Positions 17,317-51,183 of a stretch of 64,000 nucleotides of DNA are shown one piece after another (the stretch's first letter is position 1; each line of letters opens with the position of its first letter). This stretch comes from Enterococcus rotai (GTDB lineage Bacteria; Bacillota; Bacilli; Lactobacillales; Enterococcaceae). Location of the stretch: NCBI RefSeq assembly GCF_001465345.1, contig NZ_CP013655.1:1662673-1726672 (forward strand). The letters run 5' to 3'. The notes beneath the pieces were generated by a model. That model did not search any database, had not been told where the DNA came from, and saw only the letters and a program-made list of their open reading frames with translations. Both the position numbers and the translations under genes were made by a program.

Positions 17317-17673
17317 ATGAATAAAAAATTATTATCTATCTTATTATCTTCTATTCTGGGGTTGGTGATAGTTACGCAGTTTTCATCAACTGTGAGTGCT
17401 GCTGAAAACCAAAATGGGGGACAAGTAACGACTGAAGGAATCATTACGTTCTATGAAGACGCAACAGAGCCGACAACGGAACCGACAACAGAGCCTTCAG
17501 AGCCAACACCGACTAGTCCTTCCGAACCCAAGGTCATAAAACCTGTTGGAAGATATCCTTCTACTGGGGAAATCATCAAAGGTTCTATTGGGATTAGCGG
17601 AATTGCTTTAGTTAGCATCGCACTTTTCCTTTTCTTTAAGAAACGAAAAAAAGAACAGGAGGCAGATAAATGA
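17317..17673 (+). CDS. Small sortase-anchored protein of the WxL locus
   Basis: A 118-aa surface protein with a signal peptide (about 1-28), then a short strand motif EGIITFYED (about 41-49), a Thr/Glu/Pro-rich linker and a C-terminal sorting signal YPSTGE with a hydrophobic segment and a KKRKKE tail. The sorting motif has Y in place of the L of LPXTG. Small LPXTG proteins of this kind are regular members of WxL clusters. The strand motif resembles those in the two following WxL-type proteins. Its stop overlaps the start of the next gene (ATGA). Confidence 0.88.
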   Translation: MNKKLLSILLSSILGLVIVTQFSSTVSAAENQNGGQVTTEGIITFYEDATEPTTEPTTEPSEPTPTSPSEPKVIKPVGRYPSTGEIIKGSIGISGIALVSIALFLFFKKRKKEQEADK

Positions 17674-18476
17674 AAAAAAGATTATTGATCATTGCTGCCA
17701 GCATGCTGCTTTTAGCGACAGTGGGAACAAAAAATCCAGTGTTTGCTGAAAAAAATAATGTGATAGGGCACGGAACAGTTGAATATACTGGGGAACATCC
17801 AAAAGAACCAGTCGATCCTGAAAATCCAGTCAAACCAGTTGACCCAGGTCCAGGCCCTTCAACCGATGGAGATCTTAGATTTGAGTTTGCCCCAACGTTA
17901 AACTTTGGCAGAAGTAAAATTACTGAAACAGACCGTAATTTCTACGTAAATGCGCAACTATTTCATGATGGAACAGCAGCTAGAGGAAACTTTTTGCAAA
18001 TCACTGATTCTAGGCCCGAAGGTTCAGGTTGGACGCTTCAAGTTAGGCAAGAATATCAATTTAAAAATGATGTCATTCAGGATGATAAAGAGAAAGAATT
18101 GAGAGGGGCAGTCTTATCCTTTGATAAAGCGTGGGCAAACTCTGCGTATACTCAAGAAAAATCGCCCCAACTCAGTAAAGATATCATCCAATTGAATGCA
18201 CCTGGAACAACGTTTCCGGTAGCTTCTGCTGATCAAGGTCAAGGGAAAGGAACTTGGATCATTTCGTTTGGTGCGTCCGCAGATAATAGCCAAGACCAAC
18301 CAAATACTCTTTTCCCTAAAGTGGATGAAAAAAATCAACCGATCTTAGACGAAAATTTTGAAAATCAGCAAGTCTATGGAAACAAAGCAATTTTTTTATC
18401 TGTGCCGGATACAGTAAAAATTCATCCAGTACAATATCAAACCGAGTTAACTTGGATATTAGCCGAGTTACCATAA
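17670..18476 (+). CDS. WxL-domain surface protein
   Basis: A 268-aa secreted protein with a signal peptide ending near FAEK, strand motif GHGTVEYTG, a Pro-rich linker (VDPENPVKPVDPGPGP) and a WxL domain with WTL at W121 and WIL at W262. It should attach non-covalently to peptidoglycan. It overlaps the previous gene by four bases and is followed 32 nt later by another WxL-type gene, which supports coordinated amounts of the proteins. Confidence 0.9.
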   Translation: MKKRLLIIAASMLLLATVGTKNPVFAEKNNVIGHGTVEYTGEHPKEPVDPENPVKPVDPGPGPSTDGDLRFEFAPTLNFGRSKITETDRNFYVNAQLFHDGTAARGNFLQITDSRPEGSGWTLQVRQEYQFKNDVIQDDKEKELRGAVLSFDKAWANSAYTQEKSPQLSKDIIQLNAPGTTFPVASADQGQGKGTWIISFGASADNSQDQPNTLFPKVDEKNQPILDENFENQQVYGNKAIFLSVPDTVKIHPVQYQTELTWILAELP

Positions 18477-18508
18477 AACACACACATAAAAACTAGGAGG
18501 AAACACAC

Positions 18509-19360
18509 ATGAAATTCAAATCACTATGTACACTAGCAGTAGTAGCTGCAATCACAACAGGAGCTTTAGCACCAATGGCAGCAAATGCAGCAAACAAAAC
18601 ATTACCTGGTAAAGGTGAAGTAACATACGAAGAAGACAGCACTACAAACAAGCCAGGAGATCCAGAAATTCCTGGTGGAACAGATCTTGATCCAGATAAA
18701 GACAAAAACCCTGATATTAACATCAATGAAGATGGCGGACCAATCACAATCGATGTTGTGTCGAATTTAACGTTCCCTAACCAAAAAATTGGTGTATCAC
18801 CAGAAGCAACAAAAGCATTTGCGAATCCAGTTACTTTAACTTTGAATGATGCAGCAGAAGGAAAAGAAGCAACTAAAGTGACTCGTGGTAACTATGTACA
18901 ATGGACTGACAAGCGCGCAGGAAATGACCACAAATACGAAATCAAAGCAGCATTGACTCAACAATTTACTAATGGTTCAAACAAATTAAACAATGCAACC
19001 ATCACTTACTCTAATGGGTTTTTAAACTCTGATATGCCAGCAGCTAACTGGTCAGACAAACGTCCAGAATCTAACATCGTGTTAGCACAAGGTGCTGATG
19101 GTGGTGCAGGAGAGTCACAGCTAGTCTATGATAATAACAGCACTTCAACTGGAGCTCAAGGGTTGGGTACATTCTATACTGAATTTGGAACATCAACGCT
19201 TGATGTGAAAAACACTCTTGGTGAATCTTCAACTGGTACAGCAGACAAATCTGTTGAATTAATGGTTCCAGCTGGTCAAAACATTGTTAAAGGAACTTAT
19301 GTTGCGGCTATTACTTGGTCAATCGAGTACACTCCAGCACCAGTAACTCCAGCACCATAA
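18509..19360 (+). CDS. WxL-like surface protein with degenerate motifs
   Basis: A 283-aa secreted protein with the same layout as the WxL protein before it: signal peptide (about 1-28), strand motif GKGEVTYEED, acidic Pro-rich linker, and a beta-rich domain. The domain aligns in plan with WxL domains but lacks a clear first WxL motif, and the second reads WSI near the C-terminus. It may therefore bind differently or depend on partners. The ribosome site AGGAGG is strong and codon use is highly optimised, suggesting abundant expression. Confidence 0.82.
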   Translation: MKFKSLCTLAVVAAITTGALAPMAANAANKTLPGKGEVTYEEDSTTNKPGDPEIPGGTDLDPDKDKNPDININEDGGPITIDVVSNLTFPNQKIGVSPEATKAFANPVTLTLNDAAEGKEATKVTRGNYVQWTDKRAGNDHKYEIKAALTQQFTNGSNKLNNATITYSNGFLNSDMPAANWSDKRPESNIVLAQGADGGAGESQLVYDNNSTSTGAQGLGTFYTEFGTSTLDVKNTLGESSTGTADKSVELMVPAGQNIVKGTYVAAITWSIEYTPAPVTPAP

Positions 19361-19396
19361 TTAAAAGTAAAACATAATTTAAACGAAAATAGTCAA

Positions 19397-19446
19397 TACT
19401 CGAGGCACTGGTTCCTTCACTGGAATCAGTGACCTTGTTTTGAGTA
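19397..19446 (+). terminator. Imperfect hairpin between WxL and DUF916 genes
   Basis: aggcactggttcc pairs with ggaatcagtgacct, with outer arms tactc/gagta. A ttgtttt run lies inside the 3' arm. It could be a partial terminator or an mRNA stabilising or processing hairpin that lowers expression of downstream genes relative to the WxL genes. Confidence 0.5.
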
Positions 19447-19468
19447 AAGAATGGAAGAAGGAAATTTT

Positions 19469-20539
19469 ATGAAAAATAAACTAACATACATAGTAACAAC
19501 AATTCTTATTTCAATTATTACACTTGCCGCATGGTCAACCCACTCTTTTGCACAAGAAGCCGGTGGTGCTACAGGATTTGTTTATGAAATAAAATTTCCT
19601 GAAAACCAACAAAAAGAGGCCGGTTACTTTGATTTGAAAATGAAACCAGACCAAAAACAAACTGTGCAAATAGTACTTAAAAATCCCTCCGATAAAGAAA
19701 TAGCAGTAGAAACAAGCATCAATGGTGCCAAAACGAACATGAACGGTGTTTTAGAATATGGTCCAATCAAACTAAAAAAAGATGAGTCCTTAAAATATGA
19801 TTTCGTTGATATTGTGGAGGCACCAGAAAAGATTGTTTTAGCGCCAAACTCTGAAAAAACATTAGACATAGACATTACAATGCCGAAAGTTTCATTTGAC
19901 GGTTTGATCGTTGGAGGAATTCAACTAAAAAAAGCCGATGATGATAAACAAAAAACACAAAACGGTGCAAATGTTATTAACAAATATGCCTATGTAATTG
20001 CAATGGTTTTACAAGAAACCGACACTGAAGTAGTGCCAGAGCTGAATCTAAATAAAGTCAATGCAGGACAAGCAAACGCTCGTAACGTTGTTTACGTAGA
20101 TGTTTCTAATGTAGAAGCTAACTTTCTAGATAACTTGTCGATGGAAGCTCAAATCATGTCGGATAAAAGTGATGAAGTTTTATATGAAACAAAAAAATCT
20201 TCTATGCGGATGGCACCAAATTCTAATATGACATTTCCCGTAAGTATGCAAGGGGAAGAAATGGTTGCTGGAAAGTATCGTGCTCATGTACTAGCAACAT
20301 CGGGTTCTAGAAAATGGGAGTGGACAGAAGAGTTTGAAATTACCAAAGAAGAAGCGGATAAATTTAACCGAGAAGATGTTGGATTGGTGCAAGAAAAAGG
20401 CGTAAATTGGTTGTTGATCATCGGAGCAGCAATAGGCTTATTCGTGATAATATTAGTGATTTTCTTTATTATCCGTACAATCCGTAAAAAAAGAGAAGCG
20501 ACAAAAAAAGCAGAACGCCGTAAAAAGAAAAAGGAATAA
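19469..20539 (+). CDS. DUF916/DUF3324 WxL-interacting membrane protein
   Basis: A 356-aa protein with an N-terminal signal peptide, a DUF916 domain (about 30-150), a DUF3324 domain (about 155-300), one C-terminal transmembrane helix (about 311-334) and a very basic cytoplasmic tail (KKKKE). Proteins of this family (WxIP) are membrane-bound partners of WxL proteins. Start ATG 19469 after GAAGAAGG. The gene follows the WxL genes in the same direction and is part of the classical WxL cluster set. Confidence 0.9.
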   Translation: MKNKLTYIVTTILISIITLAAWSTHSFAQEAGGATGFVYEIKFPENQQKEAGYFDLKMKPDQKQTVQIVLKNPSDKEIAVETSINGAKTNMNGVLEYGPIKLKKDESLKYDFVDIVEAPEKIVLAPNSEKTLDIDITMPKVSFDGLIVGGIQLKKADDDKQKTQNGANVINKYAYVIAMVLQETDTEVVPELNLNKVNAGQANARNVVYVDVSNVEANFLDNLSMEAQIMSDKSDEVLYETKKSSMRMAPNSNMTFPVSMQGEEMVAGKYRAHVLATSGSRKWEWTEEFEITKEEADKFNREDVGLVQEKGVNWLLIIGAAIGLFVIILVIFFIIRTIRKKREATKKAERRKKKKE

Positions 20540-20574
20540 AAAGTGATACAGACAAATAAATGGGAGGAAGGATC

Positions 20575-21243
20575 ATGACAACATTAGATTGGTTTTTTAT
20601 TATAGGATTAGTGTTGGCGGTCCTTGCCGGCCTATTCTTTATCCTTTTTCTAATTTTAACAATCAGAACTGGGACTCAAGTAAAACATTTAAATAGGAAA
20701 AAAGCGAAAACAAAGAAGAAAAAGAAAAGACTCCGCATAGCAAGAAAGAAACTGATAAAGCGGAAAAAAAGACAACGCTCTGGTGCAATCCTATCATTGA
20801 TTTTTAGTTTATTATTGGGAGCAGGGGCTTTCTACGCTTCTTATTATCAAGCGATGAACTTAACTACAGATGATTCAGATTCGATTTCTAAAGGGTATTA
20901 TCTGTTAAGCGATTTTGAACAGGAATTGACAAAAGCTGGCAGTGCCTCTGAGTCACAAGAAAAAACGGTAACGAATTTACGCTATCTTGCCAACAGTATT
21001 GCTAGCTATGGAACGAAAAAGGCCAGTACGGTCAATACCCAAGAAGGACAACTAACACTAAATCGTTATTACAACGCCATGAAAGAGTTAGGCACAAATG
21101 TTATGAGAAACTATACTCAGATTTACAACAATCCTGATTTGGCAGAGAACTACCAAGAAGATGTTAAAAAAGTGAAAAAGTATGAACAAAAAGTATTTAA
21201 GCTGTACAATGTCAATGAAGCTGCTTTAGATCAGAAAAAGTAA
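20575..21243 (+). CDS. Two-TM membrane protein of the WxL locus
   Basis: A 222-aa protein not recognised as a known family. A hydrophobic helix at about 6-31 is followed by a strikingly Lys/Arg-rich cytoplasmic loop (about 40-68), a second helix at about 72-92, and an extracellular, mainly helical region (about 93-222). Start ATG 20575 after GGGAGG. Lying between the WxIP gene and the signal-peptidase-like gene, it is probably a structural or export helper of the locus (inference from position only). Confidence 0.75.
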   Translation: MTTLDWFFIIGLVLAVLAGLFFILFLILTIRTGTQVKHLNRKKAKTKKKKKRLRIARKKLIKRKKRQRSGAILSLIFSLLLGAGAFYASYYQAMNLTTDDSDSISKGYYLLSDFEQELTKAGSASESQEKTVTNLRYLANSIASYGTKKASTVNTQEGQLTLNRYYNAMKELGTNVMRNYTQIYNNPDLAENYQEDVKKVKKYEQKVFKLYNVNEAALDQKK

Positions 21244-21262
21244 ACAATTGAGGTGATTTATC

Positions 21263-21979
21263 ATGGAATCACAAAAACGTGCAGTCAAAAAAATTAAAAT
21301 GAATGAAAAAAAGAAGTCGCAAAGTTCCCAAAAAAGCGCTTATCCTAGTAAGAAATCGAACAAACCTAAAATGAAAGGAAAGCGCTCGGGAAAATCCAAA
21401 AAAGCCTTGTTGGAAGCGAAGAAACGACGACAGAAGCATAAACGCAAAATGATGCTCTTCGAACTTTTGGGTGCAGTATTGATTACAAGTGCCATAGTGT
21501 TTATTCTTTCAATATTTTTATTTGCTTTACCTAAAGTAGAAGGTTATTCAATGGTTCCCACGCTTAGAGATGGTGATCGAGTATATGTGAATAAACGAGG
21601 GAAACTCAAAAATTTTGAGCTGGTTTATGTAAAAATACCTGGTACAAAAGAAAAAGAAATTCGCCGAATAATCGGAATGCCAGGTCAAAAAATAACATTT
21701 AAAAATGATCAGTTACAAATTGATGGGCAAGATAAGGAAGAAAAGTTTATTTTTGACGAACAACAAAAATCACAAGAAAATGGAAGATTGTACACAGATG
21801 ACTTTTCAACCTTTACCTTGACTGGGAAATCTGATATTCCAGAAGGAAAGTATTTGCTGATGGGAGATAATCGTCCATACTCAGTGGATAGTCGGAATCG
21901 GGGACTTGTAGATCAAAAAGATATTATAGGTGTCGTGGAAATGAGAGTACTACCTTTGCATTTACTGCAAAGCTTTTAA
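21263..21979 (+). CDS. Signal peptidase I-like protein with Lys-to-Arg change
   Basis: A 238-aa S26 family protein. A long basic cytoplasmic extension (about 1-66) precedes one TM helix (about 68-90). The nucleophile Ser is kept (S96 in GYSMVPTL) and the box E motif GDNRPYSVDSRN is intact. In the box that normally reads K-R-I-I-G and supplies the general-base lysine, the sequence is EIRRIIG, so R134 stands where Lys is expected. It may be slow, altered or non-catalytic, like accessory signal peptidases of pilus loci. Last gene of the WxL locus. Confidence 0.85.
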   Translation: MESQKRAVKKIKMNEKKKSQSSQKSAYPSKKSNKPKMKGKRSGKSKKALLEAKKRRQKHKRKMMLFELLGAVLITSAIVFILSIFLFALPKVEGYSMVPTLRDGDRVYVNKRGKLKNFELVYVKIPGTKEKEIRRIIGMPGQKITFKNDQLQIDGQDKEEKFIFDEQQKSQENGRLYTDDFSTFTLTGKSDIPEGKYLLMGDNRPYSVDSRNRGLVDQKDIIGVVEMRVLPLHLLQSF

Positions 21980-22055
21980 TTTTAATTTCATAAAGAATGT
22001 AGTAAGGACGAAGAGACTTCCACAAAATAGCGTAAAGAATGTAAGAAAATCAATA

Positions 22056-22091
22056 TGAAAAATTGTTTGTATTAAATTAAACAATTTTTCA
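22056..22091 (+). terminator. Terminator of WxL locus 1
   Basis: tgaaaaattgttt pairs perfectly with aaacaatttttca, followed by a T-rich run. Confidence 0.75.
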
Positions 22092-22156
22092 TATTTTATT
22101 TTATAAAATTGAGAATGCTTCCAGGCTTTTCTAAAAAATAATTAGGGGGATTAAAA

Positions 22157-25100
22157 ATGAAAAAAATGGGAAGAAAATTGTTGGGAATTATTGTTGTACT
22201 ATTTTTCGTACATATGAGTAGTATAGAAAGTGAAGCAGTTCCGTCAGATCCTGAAATAGGGAGTTACAAACAGCCATCAGGACAAACCTTTGAAGCGCAA
22301 AATATAGGAGATGAAAATTTTCACTATACTCTCGCAAATGGAACAGGAGATTTGATTGAACTAGGAGAAGATGACTATTGGTATTATACTCAGTTAGATG
22401 AATCAACAAAAGAGGTAATGGCTTCAAAAAGTAGATATTTAATTGACAGACGTCCTAGCTCAGCTTTAAATTTTAAAGATATTGACAAAATAAAGAAAAA
22501 AGAGAAGTCTAAACAGAAAGTTGAAATGTCCCGATCTGAAAAAAAATGGAATAAAGAACAGAATCTTTTAGTAGTTTTAGTAGAATTCAATGATGTTCAG
22601 TTAAACTATTCAGAAGCTGAATGGGAAAAACGTATTTTCTCTCAAACAGAAAAAAGTTTGACTTCATACTATAAAGAAGCCACAAATAATGCGATCAATA
22701 TTTTACCTGCAAAAGAAATGGATGGAAAACAAGATGGAATTGTACGTGTAAAACTAAATCAAAATCATCCTAATGCTGCTAACAGTTTTGACAAGGTGTT
22801 ACCTAGTTTGAAGTTAGCCTTGGAAAATAGTCAAACTTTGGTTGATATTTCTGAGTACGATACAAACAAAAATGGTATTTTAGAGCAAGATGAACTTCAT
22901 ATCATGAGTATTTTTGCTGGATATGAAGCGTCAAGTATCAATCTAAATCCAAGTGTTTGGGGACATCATTGGGCTTATCAAGGACAAGCAACAGGCTATC
23001 CTATTGTCAATGGTGTAAAAATAAATCATTACACTGCTTTTGGTGAACGGATGTTACACAAAGATACTGATCCTACAAAACAGTATGAGTATCAATCTGA
23101 ATTAGGTATCGTAGCACATGAGTTTGGTCATGATTTAGGACTGCCAGATCTTTATAATTCAGAAAAAACGATTATTCAGCAAGATGGAAAATACGTTAGT
23201 GTTTCAGATGGTGATGGACTTGGGAGATATAGTCTAATGGCTGGTGGATCATGGTTGAAAATGCCAGGGGAAGAAAATGGAGCTACTCCTCCACATTTAG
23301 ATGCCTACTGTAAAGTTGAGTTAGGGATTACTGAGCCTGAAATAATAAATGAACCTAAATCGTTGAATGTCAATCATATCAGTCAACCTGATTTTAATGT
23401 AGTTCAAGTAAATACAGCAAATCCCAAAGAATATTTTTTAATCGAAAATCGCCAACTCACAGGCTATGATACTGCATTGAAAACAGTGACATATTCTAAC
23501 GAGGAAGGCTACAAACCAATTGTAGCACAAGGTGGAATTGCTATTTATCATATAAATAAAAATTATCGTAGAAATTTCTCTTCTACCAAACAACTTGTCA
23601 CATTAAAAGAATCTGATGAAGGTATTCTAGGTTATTCAAAATTAAAGCAGCCAAGATATTACGCGACAAATAATTATGATGGATTTTTCTATAAAGGAAT
23701 GGGGGGACATGGAAAGGAACAACTAGCTGAACTGACAAGAAATACTATTCCTTCAACTAAAATATCAGATGATACATTTAGCGAATTTGATATTTTTATA
23801 AATTCTGAATCGAAAGATAAAATGAATGTCACTTTCAAAGGGCAGCCAGTTCAGGTGGATAACATAAAAATTGAGCCTAAGGAAGCGACAGTCATTGTAG
23901 GTAACACTGTGCAATTAACTGCTAGTATTTTACCGGAAAATGCTGATAATCAAAAAATAAACTGGAAGAGCTCGGATGATTCTATAGCAAGTGTATCAAC
24001 AACTGGAATTATCACAGCAAAATCTGCTGGAAAAGCAATAATCACTGCAATGTCAGAAGATGGGGAAAAAATGGCGACCAGTACGATCACAGTTCCATCA
24101 GTTCCAGTATCAAGTATCAATGTTACTCCAGAAAATGTGGAATTAGGAATAGGTGGTAAACAGAAATTAGAAAGTAAAATTATACCAGAAAATGCTACGA
24201 ATAAAAAAGTGACATGGACTAGTTTGAATAAAGAGATTGTAACTGTTTCTTCTGATGGAGAAATAACAGGAAAAAAAGCAGGAAACACAACTATTACGGC
24301 TACAACAGATAATGGGGAAAAACAAGCAAAAGTAGCAGTAACAGTAACGAAATATGACGATCATGGGAACTCCGTATCAGAGGCAACTAAAATGACCGTA
24401 GGAACAGAATACACAATCAGCGTAGATTATGAAAATGATGATGATTATTTTGTATTTGAATTTCCAGATCCAAGTAAAAATTATGTGATTATTTCGGACT
24501 ATTCATTCACATCTTCATGGATGAAATACCGAGATCGAGAAATAGATTACACTACTTCTATAGACCGATCACGTGTTGTTTCAGAAAATGGATTAAACTA
24601 TTACGGTATCCGCGGAAGAGAAATCACTCATGTGAAGGACCCGAAACAATTTGAATTCTTTTCAAGAGGACGATCTGATCAAGTTGGAAAAACCTATACA
24701 GTCAAAGTAATAGAATATGAGCCAAAGCCAATTAAGGTGAATCAAGCAGAAATGAGTTGCCTAATCGGAGAGAATATTAAATTAGATATTGAGCTACAAA
24801 ATGGAATTGTAAATACAGCTAAGTACAGTGTTTTTGGTGATACGAAAGCACTGAAGATAGAAAAAGATGGAAGCATAACAGGAATAGAACCGGGAAGTGT
24901 GCGTGTATTTATTGAGGATCCACTTTCTGGATATAAAGCAGAAGTTAAAGTAGCCGTTTCGCAAAAACGTGACGATCATGGGAACTCCGTATCAAAGGCA
25001 ACTAAAATGACCGTAGGAACAGAATACACAATTAGCGTAGATTATGAAAATGATGATGATTATTTTGTATTTGAATTTCCAGATCCAAGTAAAAATTACG

Positions 25101-25579
25101 TAATTATTTCAGACTATTCATTCACATCTTCATGGATGAAATACCGAGATCGAGAAATAGATTACACTACTTATATAGATCGGTCACGTGTTGTTTCAGA
25201 AAATGGATTAAACTATTACGGTATCCGCGGAAGAGGAATCACTCATGTGAAGGACCCGAAACAATTTGAATTCTTTTCAAGAGGACGATCTGATCAAGTT
25301 GGAAAAACCTATACAGTCAAAGTAATAGAATATGAGCCAAAGCCAATTAAGGTGAATCAAGCAGAAATGAGTTGCCTAATCGGAGAAAATATTAAATTAG
25401 ATATTGAGCTACAAAATGGAATTGTAAATACAGCTAAGTACAGTGTTTTTGGTGATACGAAAGCACTGAAGATAGAAAAAGATGGAAGCATAACAGGAAT
25501 AGAACCAGGAAGTACACGCGTATTTATTGAGGATCCACTTTCCGGATATAAAGCAGAAGTTAAAGTCATAACCAAATAG
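22157..25579 (+). CDS. Secreted M6-type metalloprotease with Ig-like domains and duplicated C-terminal module
   Basis: A 1140-aa secreted enzyme: signal peptide (about 1-28), propeptide-like region (about 28-130), immune-inhibitor-A (M6) protease domain with zinc motif HEFGHDLGLPD starting at H321, and two BIG2 Ig-like domains (about 563-731). Two nearly identical 205-residue modules follow (about 734-938 and 939-1139). No sorting signal or WxL domain is seen, so it may be released or held by the modules. M6 enzymes degrade host or environmental proteins. It is separated from the WxL operon by a terminator, so any link to it is only positional. Confidence 0.9.
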   Translation: MKKMGRKLLGIIVVLFFVHMSSIESEAVPSDPEIGSYKQPSGQTFEAQNIGDENFHYTLANGTGDLIELGEDDYWYYTQLDESTKEVMASKSRYLIDRRPSSALNFKDIDKIKKKEKSKQKVEMSRSEKKWNKEQNLLVVLVEFNDVQLNYSEAEWEKRIFSQTEKSLTSYYKEATNNAINILPAKEMDGKQDGIVRVKLNQNHPNAANSFDKVLPSLKLALENSQTLVDISEYDTNKNGILEQDELHIMSIFAGYEASSINLNPSVWGHHWAYQGQATGYPIVNGVKINHYTAFGERMLHKDTDPTKQYEYQSELGIVAHEFGHDLGLPDLYNSEKTIIQQDGKYVSVSDGDGLGRYSLMAGGSWLKMPGEENGATPPHLDAYCKVELGITEPEIINEPKSLNVNHISQPDFNVVQVNTANPKEYFLIENRQLTGYDTALKTVTYSNEEGYKPIVAQGGIAIYHINKNYRRNFSSTKQLVTLKESDEGILGYSKLKQPRYYATNNYDGFFYKGMGGHGKEQLAELTRNTIPSTKISDDTFSEFDIFINSESKDKMNVTFKGQPVQVDNIKIEPKEATVIVGNTVQLTASILPENADNQKINWKSSDDSIASVSTTGIITAKSAGKAIITAMSEDGEKMATSTITVPSVPVSSINVTPENVELGIGGKQKLESKIIPENATNKKVTWTSLNKEIVTVSSDGEITGKKAGNTTITATTDNGEKQAKVAVTVTKYDDHGNSVSEATKMTVGTEYTISVDYENDDDYFVFEFPDPSKNYVIISDYSFTSSWMKYRDREIDYTTSIDRSRVVSENGLNYYGIRGREITHVKDPKQFEFFSRGRSDQVGKTYTVKVIEYEPKPIKVNQAEMSCLIGENIKLDIELQNGIVNTAKYSVFGDTKALKIEKDGSITGIEPGSVRVFIEDPLSGYKAEVKVAVSQKRDDHGNSVSKATKMTVGTEYTISVDYENDDDYFVFEFPDPSKNYVIISDYSFTSSWMKYRDREIDYTTYIDRSRVVSENGLNYYGIRGRGITHVKDPKQFEFFSRGRSDQVGKTYTVKVIEYEPKPIKVNQAEMSCLIGENIKLDIELQNGIVNTAKYSVFGDTKALKIEKDGSITGIEPGSTRVFIEDPLSGYKAEVKVITK
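24356..25577 (+). repeat. 615-bp tandem duplication inside the M6 protease gene
   Basis: Unit 1 is 24356-24970 and unit 2 starts at 24971. Only scattered substitutions separate them (for example gaggca/aaggca near the start and cttcta/cttata in the middle), so the duplication is recent or kept similar by recombination. The period is an exact multiple of three (205 codons). Confidence 0.95.
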
Positions 25580-25712
25580 AAAAGAGAAGAGTCTAAGCGA
25601 ATTTTCAGTACCGAGAACAAAACGAATCTTGTCTTTTGTTAGGATAATTTTATAAAGTTAAGTAAAAAAAAGGTCTTTTGTTTTGATATCTGTTATACTA
25701 GAGGCGTTGCAA

Positions 25713-25788
25713 GTTCCCGAAAGGATTTGTTAGAATTTCTATTATTTTTAACAAAGATGCCTTGTAACCAAATAAAATTAGGGGGAAT
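25713..25788 (+). promoter_or_regulatory. SMK-box (SAM-III) riboswitch of metK
   Basis: The segments gttcccgaaaggat, agatgccttgtaacc and agggggaat match the E. faecalis metK SMK box in order. The last segment contains the metK Shine-Dalgarno, which pairs upstream when SAM is bound. The variable helix here is tttgtta/taacaaa with a long loop. An upstream TGTTATACT (25691-25699) is a likely extended -10. Confidence 0.92.
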
Positions 25789-25793
25789 ACATT

Positions 25794-26981: not shown

Positions 26982-26986
26982 ACGAG

Positions 26987-27021
26987 GCGGCGCTACTAAT
27001 GAAAATTAGTGGCGCCGTTTT
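26987..27021 (+). terminator. Terminator of metK
   Basis: ggcggcgctactaat pairs with attagtggcgccg, tetraloop gaaa, then tttt. Confidence 0.93.
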
Positions 27022-27188: not shown

Positions 27189-27366
27189 TATGTTAAACCA
27201 AACAACAAAATAAAAGCCAACAACCCACAAAATCAATCATCAAGTTAGTTACACTAAACTTAAAAACGCTCATATTCAATGTAAAGTCTCGCAACAGACG
27301 CAACAAAACTCTGTAAATGAATAAGTAACTATATCAAACAAAAAATAGCAAAAAGGATGGAGATAC

Positions 27367-29864: not shown

Positions 29865-29866
29865 AG

Positions 29867-43776: not shown

Positions 43777-43785
43777 AGAGTAAAG

Positions 43786-43826
43786 AAACAGAGATGCTGA
43801 ATAAAACCAGTATCTCTGTTCTATTT
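43786..43826 (+). terminator. Terminator of leuS
   Basis: aacagagat pairs with atctctgtt, then a ctatttt run. Confidence 0.8.
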
Positions 43827-43854
43827 TACTATCAATTAAAAAAGGAGCAAGTAA

Positions 43855-44256
43855 ATGATTAGTCATGTAACCTTTATCGTTCAAGATTTAGAAAAAGCCA
43901 CACTATTTTTTGAAACAATATTTGATGCAAAAGAAGTGTATTCAAGTGGCGTAGACACGTTTTCGATAGCGCAAGAAAAATTTTTCTTAATCGATGATCT
44001 TTGGATAGCAGTCATGCAAGGAGAATCATTACCAACAAAAACATACAACCACATTGCCTTTAAAATCACTGAAAGTGACTATGAGACTTACTTAGATAAA
44101 ATCAATTCTTTAGGGTTAGAAATAAGAGCTGGTCGCCCGCGAATAGCTGGAGAAGCAAGCTCGATTTACTTCTATGATTTCGATAACCACTTATTTGAAC
44201 TACACACAGGTACACTAGCTGAACGCTTAAAAAGCTATCAATCAGTTTCAGAATAA
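43855..44256 (+). CDS. fosX: FosX-like fosfomycin epoxide hydrolase
   Basis: A 133-aa vicinal-oxygen-chelate enzyme. Metal ligands H4, H66 (TYNHIAF) and E115 (HLFELHTGT) are present. E41 in QEKFFL matches the Glu used as general base in Listeria FosX, distinguishing water-using FosX from glutathione- or bacillithiol-using FosA/FosB. It should open the fosfomycin epoxide with water, giving intrinsic resistance. It lies between leuS and the ABC-F gene. Confidence 0.92.
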   Translation: MISHVTFIVQDLEKATLFFETIFDAKEVYSSGVDTFSIAQEKFFLIDDLWIAVMQGESLPTKTYNHIAFKITESDYETYLDKINSLGLEIRAGRPRIAGEASSIYFYDFDNHLFELHTGTLAERLKSYQSVSE

Positions 44257-44263
44257 CCCTATT

Positions 44264-44292
44264 TTGCACAATCTATGGGATCATGCTACAAT
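44264..44292 (+). promoter_or_regulatory. Promoter of the ABC-F leader
   Basis: TTGCAC, a 17-nt spacer, then TACAAT, just after the fosX stop. Transcription would start near 44299 and run about 320 nt to the leader terminator. Confidence 0.82.
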
Positions 44293-44303
44293 ATAACTAA
44301 GAA

Positions 44304-44456
44304 ATGACGAAGGTGGTGAATAAGTACAATGGTCAACATGCCAAAAATAACAGCGGGTTTTTCATATATAATAACGTACCTAGCTTTTTGTCATGTTATT
44401 ATTTCCGATTTTTTATCTCAAGGGACAAGTGTGTCCAAAAAGGGATAAAAAATTAA
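44304..44456 (+). CDS. Possible leader ORF of the ABC-F gene
   Basis: A 50-codon frame from ATG 44304 (GTG 44316 is an alternative start) to TAA 44456, rich in Asn, Phe, Tyr and Ser, right after the predicted transcription start. A second overlapping frame (ATG 44329 to TAA 44448, 39 residues) is equally possible; the gaaggtgg at 44309-44316 could serve either. Drug-stalled translation of such leaders induces ABC-F resistance genes in other Firmicutes. Whether either is translated is unknown. Confidence 0.4.
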   Translation: MTKVVNKYNGQHAKNNSGFFIYNNVPSFLSCYYFRFFISRDKCVQKGIKN

Positions 44457-44704
44457 ATAAAACAGACCATTCAGACTTATTTACTTGAAAGTGACTAGTC
44501 ATAAAATAACGAAAAATCACTACATGTTAATTGCTTTGTGTGATGAACTAGGCAATAAATAGTATGAGCTACTAGTAGATAATGAAGGTTGAACGAAGAA
44601 CATTGTTCAGCCTTTTTGCGTATGCTAAAAGTTAATAAAAGCATTGCTAAAAAAAGAAAATGTCTATTTTTGTCGATCTGTCTGAATGGCAGAAAGAGGA
44701 GTAT
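44457..44704 (+). promoter_or_regulatory. ABC-F attenuator region
   Basis: A leader segment with several short inverted repeats (gactagtc at 44493-44502; ctactagtag near 44571) ending in the terminator hairpin at 44584. It fits a transcription attenuator controlled by leader translation. Confidence 0.55.
44584..44618 (+). terminator. Leader terminator of the ABC-F gene
   Basis: aaggttgaac pairs over all ten positions (one G-U) with gttcagcctt, followed by tttt. It lies 87 nt before the ABC-F start and about 290 nt after the promoter. Confidence 0.85.
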
Positions 44705-46312
44705 ATGTTAGTACAATTACAAAAAATAACTAAAAACTATGGAACAGTACCACTATTTGAAGCGTTGAATCTACAAATAAATAAAGGGGATAAAATCGGA
44801 CTGATTGGAGCAAATGGCTCCGGAAAATCAACTATTCTCAAAATCATTACAGGGCTTGAAACGGTTGATTCTGGAACAGTCAGCTGTAAAAAAAATAGTC
44901 ATATTGGTTATTTGGTTCAAATGCCAGAAGCGAGCGAGCAGCAGGTCAAAGAATATTTATTAGCAACTTTTACAGAGCTAAATTTGATTCAAAAACAATT
45001 AACGTATTTAGAAGAAGAAATGGCGATCTCGGGCTGTGATCTGGAAAAGGTACTTACTCGCTATGGTCAAAAGCAGGAAGAATTTCAACAAGCTGGCGGA
45101 TATGAAATAGAAAATAAGCTGGACATGATTACCAATGGATTAATGATCAAGCACTTAATGACGAAAAAACTTTCAGAATTAAGCGGTGGGGAACAAACGA
45201 TTGTTAATTTAGCTAGAATTTTATTGCAGGAAAATGATCTTGTCTTATTGGATGAACCAACGAATCATTTAGATACCAAACGAATTACTTGGCTGGAAGG
45301 CTATTTATCTCACGAAAAAACGGCTTATTTGATCGTTTCTCATGATCGCTTATTCTTAGATCATACAGTAGAAAAAATCGTTGAATTGGAAGATGGACGT
45401 ATACAAGAATACAAAGGAAACTATTCTACCTATAAAAAACAAAAAGAAGAACAATTGGAGAAATTGAGAAAAGACTTTGAACAACAACAAAAGGAAATTC
45501 AAAAGCTAAAACTAGCGATTCGACGCTTTCGCCAATGGGGACATGAAGGGGATAATGAAAAATTCTTCAAAAAAGCCAAACAATTGGAGAAGCGTTTAGA
45601 AAAAATTCAAAAAATTCCTAAGCCTAAAAATGACTCAAGTAAATTAGGAAAAACCTTTACAGAAATGAGCCGTTCTGGCAAAGAAGTTCTGCAATTTAAA
45701 GAACTTTCAAAGTCTTATGCTGGAAAAGTCTTATTTGATAAGATCGATTTCTCCTTGTTTTGGCAAGATCATGCGGCCATCATAGGGGAAAATGGCTCAG
45801 GAAAAAGTACATTATTGAAACTTGCTTTAAAGTTAGAGCATTTTGAAAGTGGAGAAATCAAGCAGGGAACGAACCTTCAAATTGGTTATTTGCCTCAAGT
45901 AATCGAATATGAAAGACCGAACCAAACGGTTTTACAGTCCTTCAGTGAAGCTTGCTCACTAGTCGAACAAAACAGCCGTCAAGCACTCGCAAAGTATTCT
46001 TTTTATAGTGAGGATGTAACGAAACAAGTACGATTTTTAAGTGGTGGTGAAAAAATTCGTTTAGAATTAGCTAAGCTAATGCATAAAGAGGTCAACTTTT
46101 TAGTGTTAGATGAGCCTACCAACCACTTAGATATCGAAACGAGAGAAGAAATCGAAGAGATTTTAGAAGAATTTAAAGGCACAATGTTAGTCGTTTCCCA
46201 TGATCGATTCTTTCTACAAAAAATGTTCGAGACTTTTTTAATGGTTGATCAACATAAAATTAGAAAAAAACTAGGAACGTATATGGACGTAATAGCAACA
46301 GCTGATGAGTAA
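44705..46312 (+). CDS. ABC-F family ATPase, probable ribosome-protection protein
   Basis: A 535-aa soluble protein with two ABC domains and no membrane part. Walker A motifs are GANGSGKST (first) and GENGSGKST (second); signatures are LSGGEQT and LSGGEK; both Walker B end in DEPTNHLD. A charged coiled-coil linker (about 245-310) lies between the domains. Start ATG 44705 has AGAGGAG; the longer in-frame start at 44660 lacks a ribosome site. The leader attenuator argues for an antibiotic-resistance ABC-F rather than a housekeeping one, but it is not Lsa(A). Confidence 0.88.
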   Translation: MLVQLQKITKNYGTVPLFEALNLQINKGDKIGLIGANGSGKSTILKIITGLETVDSGTVSCKKNSHIGYLVQMPEASEQQVKEYLLATFTELNLIQKQLTYLEEEMAISGCDLEKVLTRYGQKQEEFQQAGGYEIENKLDMITNGLMIKHLMTKKLSELSGGEQTIVNLARILLQENDLVLLDEPTNHLDTKRITWLEGYLSHEKTAYLIVSHDRLFLDHTVEKIVELEDGRIQEYKGNYSTYKKQKEEQLEKLRKDFEQQQKEIQKLKLAIRRFRQWGHEGDNEKFFKKAKQLEKRLEKIQKIPKPKNDSSKLGKTFTEMSRSGKEVLQFKELSKSYAGKVLFDKIDFSLFWQDHAAIIGENGSGKSTLLKLALKLEHFESGEIKQGTNLQIGYLPQVIEYERPNQTVLQSFSEACSLVEQNSRQALAKYSFYSEDVTKQVRFLSGGEKIRLELAKLMHKEVNFLVLDEPTNHLDIETREEIEEILEEFKGTMLVVSHDRFFLQKMFETFLMVDQHKIRKKLGTYMDVIATADE

Positions 46313-46523
46313 GAAAATTGGGTAGGAAGAAGGACGTTTCTGAAATATAACTTTGCGAGTCATATTCCAAATACGTGGAATCCGAATAAGCGGTTGATCA
46401 GAAGCAACTACTACGCTTTGCTTCGATCACATCAGCTAATGCATACACTTTCACAATTATTCAAAAAACAATGTGAAGCTAGCCAAATTCTAAGTGCTAA
46501 AGCACTAAGAGTTGAAGGCTTCG

Positions 46524-46584
46524 GAAATAAGCTGAAATTCACGAAAATTATTCTTCAAATTTTTTGTGAATTTTAGCTTATTTC
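46524..46584 (+). repeat. 24-bp stem hairpin
   Basis: gaaataagctgaaattcacg (from 46524) is inverted as gtgaattttagcttatttc (to 46584); mismatches are G-U compatible. No U-tract follows, so it is either an mRNA 3'-end structure of the ABC-F gene or a mobile-repeat remnant. Confidence 0.7.
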
Positions 46585-46822
46585 GTGAAGGTAAATACTC
46601 CTGTTCCACCCTCGTTTTCACATGGATCTTAACGTTGCTTTTTAAGACTATTCAAAAAAATATCAAAAAATAGAGATATTTTGAAGTACTTAAAAAAAAC
46701 TTAATATATGTAAAAAAGCCGAATAAGTACTTTTCAATAGCGTAAAAAGATATAAAGTTTAAAATTATTTACTAAGATGTATATATAAATTAAATGAATA
46801 ATAAAAAACTGATGTTATTAAA

Positions 46823-46851
46823 TTGAAATTATCTAAGATTTACAATACAAT
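46823..46851 (+). promoter_or_regulatory. Promoter of surface locus 2
   Basis: TTGAAA, a 17-nt spacer, then TACAAT, 60 nt upstream of the start of the large surface protein. Confidence 0.65.
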
Positions 46852-46910
46852 AATAAAGCAAGGGAATAAAATACCTGTTTTGGTTTCTAAAAAAGGAAGG
46901 GAGGACTGTC

Positions 46911-49568
46911 GTGAAAAAAAATAACCACTTGATATTTATCTGTTTTATCATTTTAACTCTTTTTCCATTTGATTGGTCCTACGCCATAGAAACCAGTCTA
47001 ACAGTCGAAGAAACTTCAGAAACAACGGAGATGACTGAGGGAACAGATACTGAGCAACTGTCAGATTCTGAAGAACTAGCGGCAGAGGAATCGTCAGTTA
47101 CGCAAAATTCTACTACTGAAGAGACAAATAGTGTAGAAAAAGAAAAAATAACAGATAATATCGATATGAATGCTATATCAAATGAAGATGAAACAGAAAA
47201 TGTTACACAAAGAGTTTTGAAGATCGCTTCCCAAGATGAAGATGGCTTTTGGTTAGTGGACTCGGCTGCTACGTTGACTGAGTATCTGAAGGATAGTCAG
47301 AAACTAAACTTTCGTTTAACCAATGATATCAATTTGGGTTCAACTGGCTATCAGCTTAGAGACAAGATGATCATTGATGGTGCCAATCACATTATTACAT
47401 ATAATAAAGGCGGTACAGCTGCCAGTGGTTTTTATGCAAACCAAGCAAATGCTGTTATCGAGATTCGCAATACACAATTTGGTAATAGCGATGGATCAGG
47501 TGCAGTTGGGTATTACGGGATTATAAGTGGGATATCAGCAGCTAATATGACATTTATCTTTGATAGTGTCGATTACTATTCCACCAATGGTCAAATGATT
47601 TATAACATAGATGGATCAGTCATTATGCGAGGACAGAATACGATTGACCAAAGAGGTACGAGTACATATTCCCAGGAATGGGCAGAGATCAATTACGTAG
47701 AGATTCAAAGCGGTCATACATCAATCAAACACTCAGGTACAACAGAAGCTTTCATCTGGTCATCAGGCACCTCTTCAGCTAATCCACATGCAAGAACTTC
47801 TCAAATCGTAGTGAGAGAAGATGCACAGCTTGATGTACAAACGAATGGAAATGTGATGTATGGTTCCCTCTCACCAAGTTATGTTGTTGAAAAAAATGGT
47901 GTGTTCAATTTGGACAAAGTTACGCTAGCGTCAACAAGTTCAAGAAACCGATTTTTCGCCGCCAACCTAACTCAACCAGTTACTTTTGATTTTAAAGAAA
48001 ATGCTCAAGTGAATTTTAAATTACCTTTACCGATTAACCTTTATACAGCTAAGGGAGGAATGACGATAGGAGAAAATGCTGACGTTTCAATAGATGTCGA
48101 AACTGGCAGTGTCTTCACGACGTCCTCATCTAGCACCTTTGCTCTCACTATGAATAGGGTAAAACAAGCTTCATTTGCAGGAACTAGTCTTGGAACTCTT
48201 GGACTAAATGGTGCGAATGGAGTAAATAATTTATCTTTTACAAGTAACTACTTACAAAAAATAGAAACATTCTCAAACAGAATAAGTAGCGCACCCGAAC
48301 AAGAGATATTGAAGAATGCTTCAGATTTGAGTGTGCAAGGAACGAATTTTACGAATATACAAGGTTCTATTGACCCATTTAATGCATCAGAACTACTTGC
48401 TTTAAAAAATTCACAGAAAATTGTATTTAGTGAATTTATAGATGTTCCAGATCAATTAGAATTATATGCTCTTGAGGCATCGGATACTTCTATTTCGTTA
48501 TCTGGAAGTTCGATGAATAATGGAAGTCCAGCAACTGAAGTAAAATTCTTCATTTTTTCTGATGAAGAGGATGCAAATGATTTGAGGAATGCAAGGCAAA
48601 TTGTTACGTTAAATTCATTTGATGGTCAGATAAACACAGCAGTAAAGTCACATTACAATGTCGTAGTGGATGGTCTAAATCCAAACACACTCTATTGGGC
48701 TCAAATGATGGTGATCAATCAAGCTGGAGAAAGCGCGTTTTCTGATACTGAATTATTTGCTACAAAACCGCAATTGAGTAACCTCACAGCGGATGTCACA
48801 ACGACTACTGCATTTATCAATGGTGAATTGGCAAGTGATACAGGGAAGTGGACGGACTATTCTAACGGGGAGGCCGCAGCAATACCTGGTCAACAGGCGG
48901 ACTTTGGAGCCAAGTATCGACAAGTCACAGTGGAGTATAGCAAAAATAAAGATTTTCCAAAAAATGAAACAAGCACTCAAATTGCGGATCTTTCTGGAGA
49001 TAAGAATCAAAAATTTAGTACGAAATTAAAAGGCCTTGATGGAGATGTTACGTATTATGTGCGTGTAAGAGTTGCAGGTGTTTACGGAGAAGAAGTCGTT
49101 TTATCAATGACACCTCTAACTGAATTTCAAACGGTAACGGAAGTCATCAAGGTGGAAGTACCGATTGAAATGGCTTTTCAGACAAAAAATAGTGATTTAG
49201 GTACTTTAAATGAAGGAGAAGTTACTTCAGCAGACTATCCAATTATCAATAAAGGAAACACACCTACTAAAATATCTATAACGAATCTGATCAAGGAAAA
49301 TACAGACGCAAACCAATTGTTGTTACTAGATAACCTTTCTGGAAACTCAGGGCAAAATGAACTTGCTTTACAAATGCTGATCAATAATGACCAAGCATCC
49401 CCACTTTTTTTAACGAGTGATTTAGCAAGCAATCCTTTATCGATCGGTACATTGAATGCCAATGAACAAAAAAATCTGACGCTTAGAGGAAAGTATTTCA
49501 ACCCAACGAAACAAGCGATCTTTCCATCGTATAAGATGACGTTTAAAGTTGAAAAAAATGAAGAATGA
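46911..49568 (+). CDS. Large secreted surface protein (adhesin-like), locus 2
   Basis: An 885-aa secreted protein. The signal peptide (about 1-26) precedes an acidic Thr/Glu/Ser-rich region (about 27-105), a beta-helix/pectate-lyase-like adhesin region (about 105-500), a fibronectin-like segment (about 530-640) and a beta-sandwich C-terminus (about 740-885) without a clear WxL pair or sorting signal. The plan parallels the 1116-aa adhesin at 13950. It overlaps nothing and is followed 10 nt later by the small membrane protein. Start is GTG after GGAGGACTGTC. Cell-wall attachment is unclear. Confidence 0.8.
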   Translation: MKKNNHLIFICFIILTLFPFDWSYAIETSLTVEETSETTEMTEGTDTEQLSDSEELAAEESSVTQNSTTEETNSVEKEKITDNIDMNAISNEDETENVTQRVLKIASQDEDGFWLVDSAATLTEYLKDSQKLNFRLTNDINLGSTGYQLRDKMIIDGANHIITYNKGGTAASGFYANQANAVIEIRNTQFGNSDGSGAVGYYGIISGISAANMTFIFDSVDYYSTNGQMIYNIDGSVIMRGQNTIDQRGTSTYSQEWAEINYVEIQSGHTSIKHSGTTEAFIWSSGTSSANPHARTSQIVVREDAQLDVQTNGNVMYGSLSPSYVVEKNGVFNLDKVTLASTSSRNRFFAANLTQPVTFDFKENAQVNFKLPLPINLYTAKGGMTIGENADVSIDVETGSVFTTSSSSTFALTMNRVKQASFAGTSLGTLGLNGANGVNNLSFTSNYLQKIETFSNRISSAPEQEILKNASDLSVQGTNFTNIQGSIDPFNASELLALKNSQKIVFSEFIDVPDQLELYALEASDTSISLSGSSMNNGSPATEVKFFIFSDEEDANDLRNARQIVTLNSFDGQINTAVKSHYNVVVDGLNPNTLYWAQMMVINQAGESAFSDTELFATKPQLSNLTADVTTTTAFINGELASDTGKWTDYSNGEAAAIPGQQADFGAKYRQVTVEYSKNKDFPKNETSTQIADLSGDKNQKFSTKLKGLDGDVTYYVRVRVAGVYGEEVVLSMTPLTEFQTVTEVIKVEVPIEMAFQTKNSDLGTLNEGEVTSADYPIINKGNTPTKISITNLIKENTDANQLLLLDNLSGNSGQNELALQMLINNDQASPLFLTSDLASNPLSIGTLNANEQKNLTLRGKYFNPTKQAIFPSYKMTFKVEKNEE

Positions 49569-49578
49569 GAGGGATTCT

Positions 49579-50118
49579 ATGGATAAAACAACTCAAACTG
49601 ATGAAGAAAAAAAGAAAAAGAAACGACTACTGCTCATACTCTTACTACTCTTGTTAGCCGTTTCAACAGGCGGCTTATACTATTATTTTTCAACTAAAAC
49701 CGAACCTGTCCAAGTTGTTTCAGGAGACTATTTGCCAGAGACAAAAGGTGCTAAGAAGATGAGTGATAAAGAAGTAAAAGAAGCAGAACAAAAAGCCGTT
49801 GATGCTAGTAAGTTTAATATGGTCATCAAATCAGAGGCCGTATTTGAAACAGGTGATAGTGAAGGCAGCTTATACATTCAAAACCCTGTCGAAAACGGGT
49901 ATCCAATCAATGTTGTGATTCGTTTAGATAGTAATGATGAACAAATTTATTCCTCTGGTGCAATTCAGCCAGGGTATGAAATAAACGGAGCCAAACTTGA
50001 TAAAACACTTGCTCAAGGAGATCATCCAGCAACCGCCACATTTGATATTTATGATTCGAAAACTAATAAGAAACGTGGACAGGTACAAGCTGGGATTACA
50101 ATTCGTGTCAACAACTAA
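49579..50118 (+). CDS. Membrane-anchored protein of surface locus 2
   Basis: A 179-aa protein with a very basic N-terminus (EEKKKKKRLL), one TM helix (about 15-33) and an extracytoplasmic beta-sandwich domain (about 80-175) containing repeated short strands. It resembles the membrane proximal domain of a WxIP in position only. Start ATG 49579 after gagaggg; the upstream in-frame ATG overlaps the previous gene and lacks a ribosome site. It probably holds or assembles the secreted proteins of the locus (inference). Confidence 0.75.
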   Translation: MDKTTQTDEEKKKKKRLLLILLLLLLAVSTGGLYYYFSTKTEPVQVVSGDYLPETKGAKKMSDKEVKEAEQKAVDASKFNMVIKSEAVFETGDSEGSLYIQNPVENGYPINVVIRLDSNDEQIYSSGAIQPGYEINGAKLDKTLAQGDHPATATFDIYDSKTNKKRGQVQAGITIRVNN

Positions 50119-50181
50119 TATCGTTATTTAGCAGGTTTTCTGTTAAAAATAAATCATCTAACACATAGAGGGAGAAATAAT

Positions 50182-50838
50182 ATGAAAAAAACGAACTTTT
50201 TACTTACTGCAATGATGCTAGGTCTAAGCGTATCAGGGTTAACACAACTAGCTTCAGCTGAAACGATCGATGGTGAAAACTCAGCAGATGTTATTATCAA
50301 TGGAACGATTGGTAAATTAGATAATACAGATCCAGATACAAACATTCCAGAAGGTTCTGATGAATGGATCAACGTTACGGTCGATACAGCAACAGCATTC
50401 CACACAACCACTGCAAGCGCACATAAAAACATTGAGTCCGCTGATTATAGCATTACAAATAATTCAGGTCGTGGTGTTGCTGTAACCTTGAATAAAATGG
50501 TGGGAACACCTAAATATGTCGACACACTAACAATCAATGCTAAAGGTGACGGTTTAGTGGCAGCTCCTGCAGCTACTAATTTAGTTGAAAGTAATGCATT
50601 AGCTGATTTGACAAGTGCACCTGTTTGGATGCGTTTGGCGAACAAAGATGGTCGTTTGAATATCGATACAGATGCAGCATCAGCATTTGCAAATTCTGCA
50701 AAATTCTACTATACAGGAACAACTGTTGCAGATTTACCAGCAAATGTTAATGAAAATACGACAGCAGAAAACTACACATTGACATTGAAATTCACATCGA
50801 TCCAAAAAGATGGGACAACACTTGGTGTAACACCATAA
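50182..50838 (+). CDS. Secreted WxL-like protein without WxL motifs
   Basis: A 218-aa secreted protein with a signal peptide ending near ASAET, the strand motif ADVIINGTIGK (about 35-45), an Asp/Pro linker and a beta-rich domain. No WxL motif is seen; a WMRL lies at about residue 150. Layout and gene position mirror the WxL genes of locus 1. A strong ribosome site (agggag) and optimised codons suggest high expression. It may be the main surface subunit of locus 2. Confidence 0.78.
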   Translation: MKKTNFLLTAMMLGLSVSGLTQLASAETIDGENSADVIINGTIGKLDNTDPDTNIPEGSDEWINVTVDTATAFHTTTASAHKNIESADYSITNNSGRGVAVTLNKMVGTPKYVDTLTINAKGDGLVAAPAATNLVESNALADLTSAPVWMRLANKDGRLNIDTDAASAFANSAKFYYTGTTVADLPANVNENTTAENYTLTLKFTSIQKDGTTLGVTP

Positions 50839-50862
50839 TTCAATAAAGGACTGTGATAAACA

Positions 50863-51183
50863 ATGAAGCAATTTAGTTGTCACATCATGATGATTATTCT
50901 TTTGGCTTGCAGCGTTGGTTCCCATCAAGAAATTGTCCAGGCTACTACTACTGAGGTAGAGGTGAACGGACAAATTGGTGGAACAAAAGCCAATGCGCAG
51001 CCGCCAAAAGAGTTAGAACCAGAAACAGATACCAAATTAGCACAACCAAAACAAACACACATAGAACTAAGAAAATTTCCAAACATGGGTAGTATTATAG
51101 AGAATGTTATCCCAATCGGATTGCTACTAATATTGATCTATTTAGTACTCAACAGATGGAAAGCACATAGAAAAACTATATAG
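50863..51183 (+). CDS. Small anchored protein of surface locus 2
   Basis: A 106-aa protein with a signal peptide (about 1-27), the strand motif TEVEVNGQIGG, a Pro/Glu/Lys linker, and a C-terminal hydrophobic helix with a KAHRKTI tail. Where the small proteins of WxL clusters have LPXTG, this one reads FPNMGS, so it is either a very degenerate sortase substrate or simply a membrane-anchored protein. Its strand motif matches that of the preceding gene product. Last gene of the locus. Confidence 0.75.
   Translation: MKQFSCHIMMIILLACSVGSHQEIVQATTTEVEVNGQIGGTKANAQPPKELEPETDTKLAQPKQTHIELRKFPNMGSIIENVIPIGLLLILIYLVLNRWKAHRKTI

Follow-up and report, generated by a model that had tools for sequence, protein, structure and literature searches.

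A shared N-terminal strand in sortase-anchored peptides and small WxL proteins of Enterococcus rotai, with a possible role in donor-strand assembly

The window analysed here is a stretch of 64,000 nucleotides of Enterococcus rotai (contig NZ_CP013655.1, positions 1,662,673 to 1,726,672) with two loci in each of which a small sortase-anchor protein is encoded close to secreted proteins that share with it a short N-terminal motif. Locus 1 encodes, in this order, a large WxL protein, a small LPXTG anchor, two small WxL proteins, a WxLIP, a membrane protein and an apparent signal peptidase, and possesses every part of the described Csc/WxL clusters (CscA-D), which are defined by a WxLIP together with small and large WxL proteins and an optional small LPXTG gene. 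The anchor matches the NCBIfam family NF053819 (EF2685/EF0750 sortase-dependent surface protein) with 98.8 bits, above the cut-off of 47, and the gene at the end of the cluster (21263-21979) reads by eye as a type I signal peptidase. WxL clusters occur widely among lactic acid bacteria and enterococci, with WxLIP present in 144 of the 295 sampled genomes of the order; the 3.75 Mb genome of which the window is a part contains 42 WxL and 25 WxLIP matches, and 39 WxLIP matches were observed in one relative. The small WxL protein has six named relatives, Enterococcus in every case. Locus 2 encodes a large protein, a membrane protein of 189 amino acids, a secreted protein of 218 amino acids and a small anchor (Table 1). 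In the portions of the literature that were available, the assembly of WxL cluster proteins was left open in 2006, the CscD peptides were noted for very low homology such that their alignment was "not informative" (PMC1534035), and the role assigned to the tiny LPXTG protein is limited to wall attachment.

A previous sequence-only reading of this stretch had named five motif strings at the mature N-termini of these proteins, and all five were found in the open reading frames (ORFs) to which they had been assigned, three in locus 1 and two in locus 2, each no more than about ten residues from the predicted end of the signal peptide (located with a simple script rather than SignalP). In the small WxL protein, the Pfam WxL match starts at residues 28-29, immediately ahead of the motif. 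Clusters were collected from the genome itself and its relatives, and a 12-position matrix was trained only on 225 non-redundant N-termini of small WxL proteins, with the threshold set at 9.36 bits, the 99th percentile of shuffled anchor regions. The consensus has S/T in position 2, G/A in position 4, V/I in position 6 and F in position 8, with variable positions between them. The threshold was exceeded by 192 of the 223 small WxL proteins, which had served as the training set, and by 58 of 99 anchors of the small LPXTG type (102 before the removal, prior to scoring, of three ORFs judged by eye to be false anchors). None of the 152 WxLIP exceeded it; among ORFs classed as large WxL the count was 4 of 65, and among other secreted-like ORFs 3 of 452. 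Because the anchors match a matrix trained on small WxL proteins, they share the strand with these proteins. In a later non-redundant set, 40 of 80 anchors pass the threshold and 69 match a loose strand pattern, and the NF053819 anchor model itself also matches the small WxL protein over residues 1-55, a span that takes in the signal peptide (E value 1.1e-5). The motifs are real and more than chance. The locus-1 motif had been taken to be locus-specific; with 69 of the 80 anchors under one loose pattern, it is instead the general motif of small WxL proteins and their anchors. The Pro/Glu-rich linker said to follow it holds up for the anchor, where this segment looks disordered, but not for the small WxL protein, where it is predicted to be ordered (block pLDDT, the predicted local distance difference test, of 96 for residues 51-60).

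The low count among other secreted-like ORFs rules out a general feature of secreted proteins. A feature of large WxL proteins is likewise ruled out: among ORFs of this class with a signal peptide, 5 of 81 N-termini pass the threshold, and all five are anchor-WxL fusions. Just upstream of the C-terminal WxL domain, 7 of 89 regions pass; the six of these that were listed comprise three fusions and three apparently chance matches inside other domains. The large WxL protein of locus 1 is without the motif. Thus, the subunits carry, at the sequence level, a conserved N-terminal strand segment as in donor-strand assembly, and the strandless tip subunit of such assemblies has a counterpart both in the large WxL proteins and in the locus-2 type, the strand being mostly absent from the large subunits of both systems.

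Anchors and small WxL proteins conserve one and the same strand face (S/T, G/A, I/V, F), with entropies of 0.7-2.2 bits in positions 2, 4, 6 and 8 and 2.8-3.5 bits in positions 1, 3, 5, 7 and 9. Matching between partners was assessed by 20,000 permutations (p floor 5e-5) in 80 non-redundant clusters, out of 120 that contain an anchor together with one or more small WxL proteins; five false anchors and the locus L018, in which the strand was mislocated, were left out. The division into even and odd positions was among the five position sets with which the analysis began. The strands of the same cluster are more alike than permuted pairs in the even positions (z 6.6, p 5e-5), with odd positions at z 1.3 and p 0.09. 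An initial permutation within genomes, on 32 clusters, was not significant (p 0.12-0.53; the even set was not in it), after which further clusters were added from genomes rich in them. With 47 clusters of 11 genomes, within-genome permutation gave p 0.005 for even and p 0.12 for odd positions, and with 72 clusters of 17 genomes, from which redundancy within each genome had been removed, p 0.00055 for even positions and p 0.054 for positions 1, 3, 5, 7 and 9. The later loci alone, 16 non-redundant clusters, gave p 0.027 and p 0.14, respectively. In a partial Mantel test given WxLIP distance (79 clusters), even positions retained r 0.19 (p 0.0002) and odd positions r 0.06 (p 0.0145). Such one-faced conservation and matching is the pattern expected of a strand that would be buried on one side.

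The genes are closely coupled. Among 128 anchors, the nearest downstream cluster gene encodes a small WxL protein in 111 cases and a large one in 4, with none within the limits in 13. The gap from the anchor to the next gene is exactly -4, as in locus 1, in 30 of the 115 measured; gaps were taken from the first possible start codon, so that overlaps other than exact -4 are rough. In ten further ORFs from seven genomes, the anchor and the following small WxL protein are joined in one frame, retaining the sorting signal, the membrane segment and the second signal peptide. An alignment mixing anchors and fusions (A6) was discarded because MAFFT placed the anchors on the WxL part. One of the natural fusions, L209 (363 amino acids), was modelled with AlphaFold2 from 60 alignment rows, 10 of which cover the anchor strand. 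Anchor residues 3-15 (KKSYDSNSGVGFY) form a strand in this model (pLDDT 87 for block 1-10 and 74 for block 11-20), whereas the WxL protein's own motif (residues 128-139), although covered by all 60 rows, is coil (blocks of 51 and 83). There is no other strand of at least three residues before residue 177, and therefore the anchor strand most likely pairs with the WxL part. In the monomer model of small WxL protein 1 (80 rows, mean pLDDT 89.0), residues 31-40, which include most of the motif, have a block pLDDT of 60 and form no strand. The predicted structure of the fusion thus matches what donor-strand insertion of the anchor would produce.

Locus 2 represents a different subunit family. Its secreted subunit has no Pfam or NCBIfam match, and comparison of its trimmed profile with WxL gave a probability of 0.03%; the 94% obtained without trimming was set aside because the signal peptide and linker were included. 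Loci 1 and 2 as variants of one code were accordingly rejected, their subunits not being detectably homologous after this trimming, and the difference between the two motifs, previously read as a pairing code, mainly reflects two distinct subunit families. The subunit profile matches large open frames (546-1959 amino acids) only from profile position 37-69 on, that is, with most or all of the N-terminal part missing; frames of 873-887 amino acids in three genomes (G005, G013, G018) are matched from position 66-68 on, and the large protein of the window itself is not among the matches listed. This large protein is proposed to be the end piece. The 189-residue membrane protein has no Pfam or NCBIfam match above cut-off, and its profile comparison with WxLIP is not significant (probability 14%); we propose that it may be the WxLIP counterpart. 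The small anchor scores 42 bits against NF053819, under the cut-off of 47. Its FPNMG is a degenerate sortase site, several relatives having FPNTG or FPSTG, and the site is degenerate also in L154 and L158.

Relatives of the locus-2 subunit occur in 43 of the 295 genomes and in 11 plasmid records, which come from Enterococcus, Melissococcus and Leuconostoc, and the four-gene neighbourhood recurs, for example, in Melissococcus plutonius; a DNA search of plasmids with the locus gave nothing useful. Altogether, 39 loci of this type were examined (L152-L177, L190, L218-L229), several of which are short cuts, and 33 of them showed an anchor ORF. In six of these anchors (Table 1), the ORF starts nearly at the motif (MDNQIEVNGWLG..., MNSTIPVTGVLN...) and no signal peptide is visible, although the LPXTG-like sorting signal and the C-terminal membrane segment are retained. 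Among 18 non-redundant subunit-anchor pairs, left from 22 after dropping four near-duplicates, subunit and anchor both have L at the second position after the conserved glycine for 8 of 10 L-type subunits and for none of the 8 others (p 0.001), and both have proline at the third position before this glycine in 4 of 5 vs 0 of 13 (p 0.0016). Matching is again stronger on one face, that of the glycine (p 0.0006), than on the other (p 0.034).

Table 1. Features of the two loci in the window and of related loci elsewhere (L numbers), with the basis of each assignment
Feature	Position	Strand	Basis or remark
Large WxL protein, 1116 amino acids	13950..17300	+	C-terminal WxL domain PF13731 (residues 943-1111), Pectate_lyase_5, Big_6
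Small sortase-anchored protein, 118 amino acids, CscD type, sorting motif YPSTG	17317..17673	+	Gram_pos_anchor
Donor-strand-like motif VTTEGIITFYED of the locus-1 anchor	17425..17460	+	residues 37-48
Small WxL protein 1	17670..18476	+	PF13731, 159.1 bits; 4-base overlap with the anchor gene
N-terminal strand motif VIGHGTVEYTGE of small WxL protein 1	17760..17795	+	residues 31-42
Small WxL protein 2	18509..19360	+	PF13731, 94.9 bits
N-terminal strand motif LPGKGEVTYEED of small WxL protein 2	18602..18637	+	residues 32-43
WxLIP (DUF916-DUF3324-transmembrane segment)	19451..20539	+	PF06030, PF11797
Locus 2 large protein, 885 amino acids	46911..49568	+	C-terminal likeness to 50182-50838 by eye
Membrane-anchored protein, 189 amino acids, extracytoplasmic part	49549..50118	+	gene order, N-terminal hydrophobic segment
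Locus 2 secreted subunit, 218 amino acids	50182..50838	+	no WxL domain detected
Motif DVIINGTIG of the locus-2 subunit	50287..50313	+	residues 36-44 of 50182-50838
Locus 2 small sortase-anchor-like protein, 106 amino acids, sorting motif FPNMG	50863..51183	+	
Motif EVEVNGQIG of the locus-2 anchor	50953..50979	+	residues 31-39 of 50863-51183
Anchor-small WxL fusions	L099, L102, L110, L136, L138, L032, L034, L035, L196, L209		
Anchors without visible signal peptide	L220:668-916, L222:748-981, L223:773-1024, L226:4110-4355, L227:4152-4424, L229:4097-4393		

The computed pattern comprises a strand that anchors and small WxL proteins share, that is rare in WxLIP and large WxL proteins and that is conserved and matched on one face, together with the coupling and fusion of the genes and the strand of the fusion model. 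We consider it somewhat more probable than its opposite (roughly 0.57) that the anchor is a wall-bound donor of a strand to the WxL domain, as in donor-strand assembly, with the small WxL protein as linker and the large WxL protein as strandless end piece. From this we infer a contact, an exchange, a chain order and a chaperone step. The mature part of the anchor would consist of one amphipathic beta strand, a flexible linker and the sorting signal; the strand would plug into a small WxL protein and complete its beta sandwich, so that the secreted protein is held on peptidoglycan, and the small WxL protein's own similar N-terminal strand would be handed to the next subunit, either another small WxL protein or the WxL domain of a large adhesin. 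In locus 1, the large WxL protein is proposed as the tip, and the membrane-bound WxLIP is proposed as a chaperone that would hold the WxL subunits beforehand, in the manner of the chaperones of chaperone-usher systems. Locus 2 would work on the same principle, although both its subunit and its strand are different.

Several observations weigh against this scheme. The fusion is a single chain in which a membrane segment and a second signal peptide separate the two parts, and its model does not clearly leave the WxL protein's own motif free, the second half being ordered (block pLDDT 83). In published AlphaFold models of other small WxL proteins, as given in the accessible part of the paper, an N-terminal strand lies over the WxL platform (PMC9772566); if that strand is the present motif, the small WxL monomer may be self-completed. 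Foldseek searches of the PDB with the small WxL and fusion models returned nothing at an E value of 0.001 or better, FimG and FimA subunits appearing at ranks 4 and 8 of one search without significance. The within-genome signal of the even positions is essentially that of position 0 alone (p 0.0005), positions 2, 4, 6 and 8 matching no better within a cluster than across clusters of the same genome (z 0.4, p 0.33), and odd positions 1, 3, 5 and 7 reach p 0.023 in the 72 clusters. The raw even Mantel correlation is 0.39 compared to the partial value of 0.19, and a large part of the matching is therefore lineage. In locus 2, the within-genome test is not significant (10 pairs, p 0.19) and 2 of the 10 L-type subunits are paired with a non-L anchor. 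Finally, electron microscopy on elr overexpression revealed no surface appendages, according to the portion of the report available (PMC4522977), and chains, if any, may therefore be short.

The same data bear on other explanations. A true pairing code, specific to each locus and keeping apart the parallel surface complexes of one cell, was part of the sequence-only reading, and covariation gives it some substance: in position 0, one or more small WxL proteins of the aromatic type accompany 18 of 26 aromatic-type anchors vs 9 of 54 others (p 5.9e-6), to which the L/L and P/P associations of the locus-2 family can be added. However, many clusters of one genome have the same core motif, and within genomes matching does not extend beyond position 0 in WxL loci and is not significant in locus 2, so that a sharp code separating clusters of one cell does not appear to be supported and we regard this explanation as rather unlikely. 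Of that earlier proposal, motif type does follow the cluster on the even face of the 80 clusters, but within genomes mostly through position 0; matching within a locus is partial, the motif being widely common among WxL loci; and the locus-2 motif covaries between anchor and subunit across lineages, but not detectably within genomes. Strand exchange joining the anchor to WxL subunits fares better, given the one-faced conservation and covariation, the natural fusions and the fusion model, although the code that came with it is only partly supported.

The strand could also be a recognition tag for a common partner, such as WxLIP, a dedicated signal peptidase or the secretion machinery, with the anchor and the small WxL protein both being clients. 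The position of the motif close behind the signal peptide in both families would fit such a tag, as would the apparent type I signal peptidase of locus 1 and the presence of a WxLIP within 8 kb of the anchor in 79 of the 80 non-redundant clusters; yet matching is confined mostly to one face of the strand and the fusion model forms the strand without any third protein, which makes a tag an unlikely explanation. Less likely again, in our estimation, is inherited likeness, whereby the anchor would be a truncated copy of a small WxL protein, consisting of the signal peptide and N-terminal strand, with no present pairing function. In its favour, the similarity extends over the signal peptide (residues 1-55), the two genes lie side by side and are fused in some cases, and the matching largely tracks cluster lineage. 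Against it, partners from one cluster have little added resemblance at the odd positions, and a single face is conserved even though the anchors span many genera of the order.

The division of labour proposed here for strand donation by the anchor is the same as in chaperone-usher pili, which have strand-bearing subunits, a strandless tip and a two-domain immunoglobulin (Ig)-like chaperone; in contrast, Gram-positive bacteria have no outer membrane and no usher. The present systems further differ from these pili in the sortase-mediated wall anchoring, and are known from sequences and models rather than as fibres. Donor-strand exchange is already known, Gram-positive bacteria included: in Bacillus subtilis, TasA fibres consist of beta-sandwich subunits joined by an N-terminal strand and TapA is a strand-donating chaperone (PMC9674648, PMC10151520), a system that, as described in the sections available, is without a sortase-anchored strand peptide. 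Profile searches of the PDB with both subunit families yielded nothing useful and detected no TasA chain at E values up to 10, so that neither family has a sequence match to TasA there. According to the opening text of the TapA paper, the signal peptidase SipW is co-expressed with TapA (PMC10151520).

The closest precedent is the WxL-WxLIP model of Hassan, Williamson and co-workers, with which the present scheme has in common a strand completing the gap of WxL. In their AlphaFold2 complexes, as far as the accessible text goes, a WxLIP strand is inserted in parallel into the gap and completes the WxL domain (PMC10599100), and their 2022 paper stressed an N-terminal strand on a long linker and suggested a rearrangement (PMC9772566); in the same portions of these two papers, the LPXTG protein serves only covalent wall attachment, and inter-subunit strand exchange is not proposed. 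To the Csc/WxL description, the present analysis adds the shared strand and the putative donor-strand role. No proposal of the small LPXTG protein as strand donor was found in the covered part of the open-access literature, preprints excluded, and this predicted role is what would be new here.

A broader proposal, which we make tentatively and hold to be possible rather than probable, is that WxL clusters, together with at least one further gene family of the locus-2 type, constitute systems of donor-strand assembly in Gram-positive bacteria, with a two-domain membrane-bound chaperone, a strand-bearing linker, a strandless adhesive end and a sortase-linked peptide that solely donates the first strand from the wall. 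Strand donation, if true, gives every part of the cluster a job. It would also explain the loss of ElrA without its neighbours: in the part of the report that was accessible, the ElrA protein is undetected without elrB-E although the transcript is still made (PMC4522977). Two subunit families with the same layout would make the sortase-anchored donor strand a general design. Beyond the WxL cluster, the window encodes a secreted protein of 1140 amino acids (22157-25579) that, judged by eye, looks like a metalloprotease of the M6 type carrying bacterial Ig-like repeats and a long internal duplication.

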